A stretch of DNA of 35,724 nucleotides from Candidatus Roizmanbacteria bacterium RIFCSPLOWO2_01_FULL_39_19. Its GTDB lineage: Bacteria; Patescibacteriota; Microgenomatia; UBA1406; HO2-37-13b. Every line of letters starts with the position of its first letter. Position 1 is the first letter of the stretch. The notes beneath the pieces are model-generated. The model made no database searches and was not told the origin of the DNA. It saw only the letters and a list, made by a program, of their open reading frames with translations. The stretch lies in NCBI GenBank assembly GCA_001789725.1, contig MGAM01000008.1, positions 1 to 35,724 of the forward strand, given 5' to 3'. Below are positions 1 through 493 of the stretch, one piece after another. Both the position numbers and the translations under genes were made by a program.

Positions 1-65
1 AACCCCCGTAGGCTTGCGCCGATAGATTTACAGTCTATTCCGATTGGCCACTCCGGCACCCCTGG
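1..65 (-). tRNA. tRNA-Tyr (GUA), 5' part, cut by window edge
   Basis: Read on the minus strand, the sequence starts with an acceptor strand CCAGGGG, then the conserved T8, a D-arm, and an anticodon arm with loop CTGTAAATC, which gives anticodon GTA (tyrosine). It continues into the long variable arm expected of a bacterial class II tRNA-Tyr and the first strand of the T-arm (GGGGGTT), where the window ends. The 3' end and the matching acceptor strand lie outside. The nuclease gene upstream on the same strand runs into this tRNA. Confidence 0.92.
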
Positions 66-345
66 TTGATTTATCTCTTTCAATTACTGTTTTTAATCGT
101 GATTTTAACATTCTCCTTCCTTGGCTTGATTTATAAAAGAGCTCTTGGTTTATAGCGTCCCCTTTATATTTAAACCCCTCATAGTAAACTAACTCGAATG
201 GTCTTCTGGGTCTAGTACTTTTTGACTCACCATTATTATGCTGTTCTAGTCTTTTCTCTACATTATAGGTAAAACCAATATAAAATTTTTTATCCTTCAG
301 ACTAAGCAAAACATACACGAAATACATAAAAACATTATATTCCAT
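28..345 (-). CDS. GIY-YIG nuclease family protein running into tRNA-Tyr
   Basis: This 105-residue protein is a stand-alone GIY-YIG domain of the small UvrC/homing-endonuclease-like type. The signature reads YVLL near residue 11 and FYIGFT near residue 21. The helix with R32 and the HNNG motif (about 36-39), the following STRPRRP segment and the YYEGF strand also match the family. The usual domain ends near residue 88. The last 12 residues, from TRG onward, are encoded by the tRNA-Tyr 5' half, and the TAA stop falls in the tRNA anticodon loop. The start is the first ATG of the frame, although an ATG six codons later (MYFVYV) fits family alignments equally well. A 16-base copy of the tRNA 5' end and two hairpins lie just upstream. 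The family is known for DNA cleavage. A link to mobility at the tRNA is an inference from this arrangement. Confidence 0.85.
   Translation of the reverse strand: MEYNVFMYFVYVLLSLKDKKFYIGFTYNVEKRLEQHNNGESKSTRPRRPFELVYYEGFKYKGDAINQELFYKSSQGRRMLKSRLKTVIERDKSTRGAGVANRNRL
51..66. repeat. 16-base direct repeat, copy A (inside tRNA-Tyr 5' end)
   Basis: The 16 bases CTCCGGCACCCCTGGT occur here and again exactly at 412-427 in the same orientation. This copy is the acceptor strand and start of the D-arm of the tRNA-Tyr gene plus one flanking base. Confidence 0.9.
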
Positions 346-355
346 CCGCTCTGCC

Positions 356-379
356 CGCTCAGACTAAAAACTCTGAGCG
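356..379. repeat. Hairpin upstream of GIY-YIG gene
   Basis: Inverted repeat: CGCTCAGA (356-363) pairs with TCTGAGCG (372-379) around an 8-base loop. It sits about 10 bases upstream of the nuclease start on the minus strand. No T-run follows on either strand, so it is not a clear terminator. Confidence 0.7.
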
Positions 380-389
380 TGAGATCGGA

Positions 390-411
390 CCCGCTCGCTA
401 TGCCGAGCGGG
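390..411. repeat. GC-rich hairpin next to repeat copy B
   Basis: A perfect 8-base inverted repeat, CCCGCTCG (390-397) and CGAGCGGG (404-411), with a 6-base loop. It directly abuts repeat copy B at 412-427. The string CCCGCTC also occurs at 354-360, next to the other hairpin. Confidence 0.75.
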
Positions 412-427
412 CTCCGGCACCCCTGGT
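412..427. repeat. 16-base direct repeat, copy B (displaced tRNA-Tyr 5' end)
   Basis: Exact copy of positions 51-66. Here it is not followed by the rest of a tRNA; on the minus strand the GC-rich hairpin follows instead. Together the two copies bracket the GIY-YIG gene like an attachment-site or target duplication. Confidence 0.9.
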
Positions 428-493
428 AAAATCCGGTCTTATTATATCATCTCAGGCCTCTATCGACTTGTAATTCTTGTCAAAACTAAGTAA

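Follow-up and report, generated by a model that had tools for sequence, protein, structure and literature searches.

The window analyzed here, a 35,724-nucleotide stretch of DNA that makes up an entire contig (G000:C8) of Candidatus Roizmanbacteria bacterium RIFCSPLOWO2_01_FULL_39_19, starts within a tRNA-Tyr gene on the minus strand. Alignment with the full tRNA-Tyr genes of relatives places tRNA-Tyr (GTA) at positions 1-65, its first nucleotide (nt 1) being base 65; the gene lacks about 20 nt at the 3′ side, lost to the contig end, which is why neither ARAGORN nor Rfam calls it. We presume this to be the working copy, with the proviso that its 3′ end is unread at the contig end, and the assembly, 77% complete, yielded no other tRNA-Tyr and no second half of one. 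Like those of relatives, this tRNA-Tyr starts with C1, in keeping with an archaeal-type identity of tRNA-Tyr that has been reported in certain CPR bacteria (PMC5370408). Upstream of the tRNA, the same strand carries an open reading frame of 105 residues (28-345, minus strand) encoding a GIY-YIG nuclease (Pfam PF01541, E 1.3e-16), the conserved domain of which begins near 327. The frame extends into tRNA-Tyr, where its last residues and its stop codon, at tRNA nt 36-38, are found.

A second copy of the start of the tRNA lies on the other side of the nuclease gene. The 16-mer CTCCGGCACCCCTGGT is present twice in the window, at 51-66 and at 412-427, both on the minus strand, as the preliminary description had reported; alignment with the full genes of relatives identifies it as tRNA-Tyr nt 1-15 (CCAGGGG TG CCG GAG) together with the single base that precedes nt 1. 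The upstream, broken copy (nt 1-15 at 412-426) is separated from the nuclease gene by two strong predicted hairpins (346-411; −43.2 kcal/mol, z −3.8), both assigned from fold and sequence on the minus strand. The first, CCCGCTCGGCATAGCGAGCGGG (390-411), begins immediately past tRNA nt 15, and the second (346-389) has a core stem CGCTCAGA/TCTGAGCG spanning 379-356. Ahead of the broken copy, an extended −10 promoter-like box, TGATATAAT (441-449, minus strand), is recognizable by consensus match only. No further copy of the 16-mer exists in the 658-kb assembly, even allowing two mismatches, and an Rfam search of positions 1-600 detected neither an intron nor any further RNA family.

The nuclease is of the minimal, single-domain UPF0213/Slx1 type, about 90 residues long, and lies nearer to these proteins than to homing enzymes of the I-TevI type. 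Among solved relatives, the best matches are 1ZG2 (UPF0213; E 2e-13) and 1YWL (E 8e-12), followed by SLX1 (E 5e-5), with I-TevI last (E 0.005). The test for a homing-type fold is met in that Pfam recognizes the GIY-YIG domain, albeit one closer to UPF0213/Slx1 than to I-TevI. The catalytic residues are conserved among the nucleases that we compared. There is no separate DNA-binding domain, and for that reason target recognition remains unexplained.

The same assembly holds three short GIY-YIG genes. The second (L003, on G000:C10) sits immediately before, and overlaps, tRNA-Gly(TCC), and upstream of it a tRNA-Gly-like 5′ body with a hairpin reproduces the layout of the Tyr locus. The two tRNA sequences of this second locus differ: within 1440-1802 of that contig, the broken copy resembles tRNA-Gly(GCC), and the intact downstream tRNA is Gly(TCC). 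No intact counterpart of the broken copy was found in the 77% complete assembly.

To place these loci in context, we analyzed 186 unique related GIY-YIG genes drawn from relatives in the same order and from a phylum-wide sample of Patescibacteria, many of the source genomes being metagenome assemblies. Relatives of the nuclease are present in 174 of 240 genomes, and several complete-looking relatives have no nuclease match whatsoever. Of the 186 elements, 125 adjoin a tRNA or tmRNA carried on their own strand; under identical limits, none adjoins one on the opposite strand. Because the elements were collected by similarity to a tRNA-associated nuclease, this proportion of two-thirds provides neither an unbiased nor a general rate. 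The arrangement recurs at most kinds of tRNA across this very large group of bacteria without cultured members, and also inside single-contig chromosomes (G019, G021). In what we term the 5′ type, the nuclease gene ends at or within the downstream tRNA, often with a TAG stop codon at tRNA nt 8-10 (11 cases) or with TAG or TAA at nt 13-15 (13 cases). Genes of the 3′ type instead come after a tRNA or a tmRNA (13 cases of the latter).

An upstream copy of the 5′ part of the following tRNA precedes 45 of 69 5′-type genes, and all but one (44) begin exactly at nt 1; in a control with tRNAs of other isotypes, an upstream copy appears in 21 of 4360 pairings (0.5%). The copy is usually interrupted by a GC-rich hairpin block, past which it often resumes at the very next tRNA base (for example 20|21, 15|16, 12|13, and 24|25). 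Identity between a copy and its own intact tRNA averages 98.0%, with 38 of 45 perfect, against 79.2% to the same tRNA in other genomes, which indicates that the copy was made from, or has been kept equal to, the resident tRNA gene. In two cases (L086 and L112), the upstream copy is near-complete (nt 1-70 and nt 1-51) and is itself still recognized as a tRNA by Rfam. Hairpins are more abundant in the leaders of both types than in those of other genes (p 4e-17), and 40 of 42 copy-bearing leaders contain one or more hairpins with a minimum of five pairs. A match to TATAAT of at least five of six bases is found at the broken copy in 25 of 45 cases, versus 16 of 45 before the intact tRNA. A promoter may thus be retained at the broken copy, although these counts are no more than suggestive because the regions are AT-rich.

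The duplication model applies to the 5′ type, since among 3′-type modules a matching copy of the tRNA 3′ part is limited to the Phe group. tmRNA 3′ ends appear as another class of target: at L014, L027, L045, L051, L055, L060, and L085, a GIY-YIG gene with a hairpin leader lies on the same strand past the tmRNA 3′ end. By ARAGORN, no tRNA or tmRNA lies near 62 of 184 elements; Rfam recovers a few additional tmRNA neighbors. One clade (L123, L134, L136, L148, L151, L155, L162, and relatives) lies away from any tRNA, tmRNA, or other RNA known to Rfam.

A conserved tRNA array, Arg-Ala-Ile-Phe-Gly, is shared across the order and allows occupied and empty sites to be compared directly. The Ile-Phe gap measures 1-9 nt in ten genomes and holds a module in two others (G022 and G034); likewise, the Phe-Gly gap measures 1-22 nt in seven genomes and holds a module in G010 and G021. 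Across genera, both gaps are thus either filled or empty, as the empty-site criterion for a free-standing homing endonuclease element requires. No empty ortholog of the Tyr site was recovered, because synteny is broken around the neighboring gene at 505-1968, whose ortholog lacks an adjoining tRNA at all 19 loci inspected in relatives. The preliminary description had allowed that its proposal would fail if close relatives all had this arrangement, with no empty site and no module at other tRNAs, or if the 16-mer proved common at unrelated places. None of these holds: many other tRNAs carry a module, empty sites exist at homologous tRNA pairs (the Tyr site itself having no direct empty counterpart), and the 16-mer is absent elsewhere in the 658-kb assembly.

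Further configurations bear description in their own right. A scar without a nuclease lies in the tRNA-Ile/tRNA-Phe interval of G021 (L190), consisting of tRNA-Phe nt 1-15, the palindrome CCCTCCGAATCGGAGGG, and then a piece of the tRNA-Phe 3′ half; the palindrome core TCCGAATCGGA reappears at Phe sites of other genera. In G043 (record KatS3mg090; L038, G043:C2:1-6500), 12 identical head-to-tail units of 357 bp reach the contig end, each composed of a tRNA-Ser 5′ half, a hairpin, and a GIY-YIG gene, although this array may be an effect of assembly. The contig of a sister genome (G050, L015) terminates in the same element. Elsewhere, modules flank a single tRNA on both sides (L013, L071, L073, and L075), or two consecutive nuclease genes precede one tRNA (L022).

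A tree of 184 nuclease domains, whose deep branches we do not trust because the alignment is short in columns, relates the nucleases to their targets. On this tree, tRNA isotype requires 65 changes where shuffles give no fewer than 89, and side of insertion requires 19 where shuffles give no fewer than 38; host family, with 77 changes to a shuffled minimum of 82, is close to random. Moreover, when a nuclease is paired with its closest relative from another genus, side and isotype both agree in 54 of 122 pairs, where shuffling reaches 15 at most. One Val clade, for example, spans three host families, and one Pro clade two. Nuclease lineages thus track the tRNA target, and not the host, as is asked of a free-standing homing endonuclease element. 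Beyond these genomes, a scan of named genomes with a profile built from four sequences found the arrangement widely among Patescibacteria lineages and also in 9 of 18 cases from Omnitrophota, where four tRNA-Met loci carry copies ranging from nt 1-9 to nt 1-27. Among relatives from eight other phyla, none of 15 adjoins a tRNA.

We consider it likely that these loci represent a minimal selfish module, a hairpin block with a GIY-YIG gene of about 90 residues, that lives in tRNA genes while one intact tRNA is kept. The layout on one strand (hairpin-broken 5′ tRNA copy, nuclease gene, intact tRNA), its recurrence at many tRNAs, its patchy presence with empty sites, and the tracking of tRNA identity by nuclease lineages are directly established by the sequences; cutting, mobility, and transcription are inferred. 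The preliminary description had suggested that a minimal mobile module, some 360 bases long, entered on the 5′ side of the tRNA and copied its first bases. That proposal is supported, movement being inferred from comparison, with two refinements: insertion is better placed within the gene's own 5′ half, in most cases in the D-arm, with the tRNA rebuilt downstream, and related modules occur at tRNA and tmRNA 3′ ends as well.

Mechanistically, the nuclease would cut the tRNA gene in its 5′ half. Insertion may then follow either by repair from an element-bearing copy or by single-crossover integration of a circular tRNA5′-hairpin-nuclease unit, and either route would yield a broken copy, hairpins, a nuclease gene, and a complete downstream tRNA. 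Insertion would be of little cost because the tRNA survives. The module would be transcribed from the promoter of the tRNA, and RNase P would free the tRNA from the joint transcript. In the many cases where the stop codon lies inside the tRNA, tRNA maturation would cut the message ahead of the stop, limiting production of nuclease. The hairpins may shield the end of the message, keep the broken copy from functioning like a tRNA, or serve as the recognition feature of the enzyme; the data do not decide between these possibilities. Several points weigh against our preferred explanation. Neither cleavage nor insertion nor a transcript has so far been seen, and the Tyr site lacks an empty ortholog. 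The protein resembles UPF0213/Slx1 nucleases more than homing enzymes of the I-TevI type and carries no DNA-binding domain of its own; 62 of 184 relatives are without a tRNA close by, and the copy at the Gly locus differs from the intact tRNA.

Several rival explanations deserve consideration, of which structure-guided insertion is the most serious, even if we regard it as unlikely. Here, an Slx1-like enzyme would act on the hairpins or cruciforms of tRNA genes and module palindromes, such that tRNA genes are targeted by their fold without sequence-specific homing and the tRNA copy arises by recombination between repeats. The ranking of solved relatives, with UPF0213 (E 2e-13) and SLX1 (E 5e-5) ahead of I-TevI (E 0.005), favors this idea, as do the strong hairpins of the leaders and the targeting of tmRNA ends; specialization of the lineages by tRNA isotype, however, is unexpected for a purely structural target. 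We think it very unlikely that the nuclease is instead a domesticated host enzyme for tRNA gene maintenance or processing, placed beside tRNAs for co-expression and leaving partial copies as by-products. Presence in 174 of 240 genomes, conserved catalytic residues, and an invariable position on the tRNA strand would fit such a role, but the distribution is patchy with empty sites, several complete-looking relatives lack any match, the lineages track target rather than host, and copies occur stacked and in tandem.

A still more remote prospect is that of a classical integrative element, or the remnant of a group I intron, at a tRNA. Integration at tRNA genes and intron-borne GIY-YIG genes are both known. 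Yet within its 360 bp or so the unit encodes the nuclease alone, without an integrase, its repeat is the tRNA 5′ end and not a 3′-end attachment repeat, and Rfam at 20 loci finds tRNAs only, with no intron family or fold. Group I or II introns and other RNA families were accordingly rejected as candidates, with none at those 20 loci and none in positions 1-600 of the window. Finally, tRNA duplication or contig-end assembly errors might by chance adjoin an unrelated nuclease gene, a reading encouraged by the start of the window inside a tRNA and by the several elements at contig ends. For the family as a whole, this is all but excluded by the presence of the layout within single-contig chromosomes (G019 and G021), the start at nt 1 in 44 of 45 copies, and the count of 0 on the opposite strand; for the window itself, only the tRNA 3′ end is still unread.

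On the selfish-module reading that we prefer, the modules look like a widespread and apparently undescribed family of minimal selfish DNA in tRNA genes. Our search of the open-access literature, which did not extend to subscription papers or preprints, found no description of tRNA-associated GIY-YIG modules in Patescibacteria. A bolder version, toward which we lean slightly less than against, envisages phylum-wide autonomous elements of about 360 bp (one 90-residue Slx1-type nuclease gene and a hairpin block), each lineage specialized on one tRNA, rebuilding that tRNA at every insertion, living off its promoter, and throttled by its maturation via the stop codon in the tRNA. If the selfish-module reading is true, tiny streamlined bacterial genomes carry many selfish genes within their most essential RNA genes, a load seemingly undescribed in the open-access literature searched. 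It would help to account for the abundance of short GIY-YIG genes in Patescibacteria, and a minimal Slx1-like nuclease would be the engine of a mobile element. The many natural insertions may serve as material from which target rules can be read, and a common cause is suggested for two features of these genomes, the broken tRNA copies and the contigs that end at tRNAs.

Comparison with known systems brings out both precedent and departure. The protein itself is most like the UPF0213, or prokaryotic Slx1-like, GIY-YIG proteins (1ZG2, 1YWL; PMC1564403), which are minimal single-domain enzymes and the best solved relatives of the window nuclease. These are regarded as vertically inherited and repair-related (PMC1564403), and relatives outside Patescibacteria and Omnitrophota, unlike those described here, do not adjoin tRNAs. 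GIY-YIG reading frames were noted in 2024 in insertion sequences of CPR rRNA genes, where they were sparse and judged to lie outside spread by homing (PMC11270868). That report shares with ours GIY-YIG genes in non-intron insertions of structural RNA genes from the same bacteria; tRNA goes unmentioned there.

As whole systems, phage SegB and fungal mitochondrial mORFs come closest. SegB is a free-standing GIY-YIG homing endonuclease that cuts within tRNA genes, and its tRNA-Tyr and segB undergo tandem amplification via microhomology linking the 5′ end of the tRNA to the 3′ end of segB (PMC13096335). Both systems place a GIY-YIG nuclease beside tRNA genes, and the tandem repeats are much like the array in G043. 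SegB differs in being a phage enzyme associated with tRNAs without isotype preference, whereas here we see bacterial chromosomes, nucleases of about 90 residues, and isotype-specific lineages; nor do the relevant passages report a broken 5′ tRNA copy with a hairpin block (PMC13096335). Phage matches to the module are weak and partial, with none to T-even phage. A phage or plasmid vehicle was considered and rejected, with only weak, partial matches and a single weak match among viral contigs.

Fungal mitochondrial mORFs, as in atp6 of Allomyces and atp6, atp9, cox2, and nad3 of Glomus (PMC3630166), are the other close likeness: a free-standing endonuclease gene lies within an essential gene, and a duplicated part of that gene keeps it functional. 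In mORFs, the hosts are protein genes, and the duplicated 3′ part is foreign (64-81% identity). In the modules, by contrast, the hosts are tRNA genes, the 5′ part is duplicated, and the copies are 98% identical to the resident tRNA.
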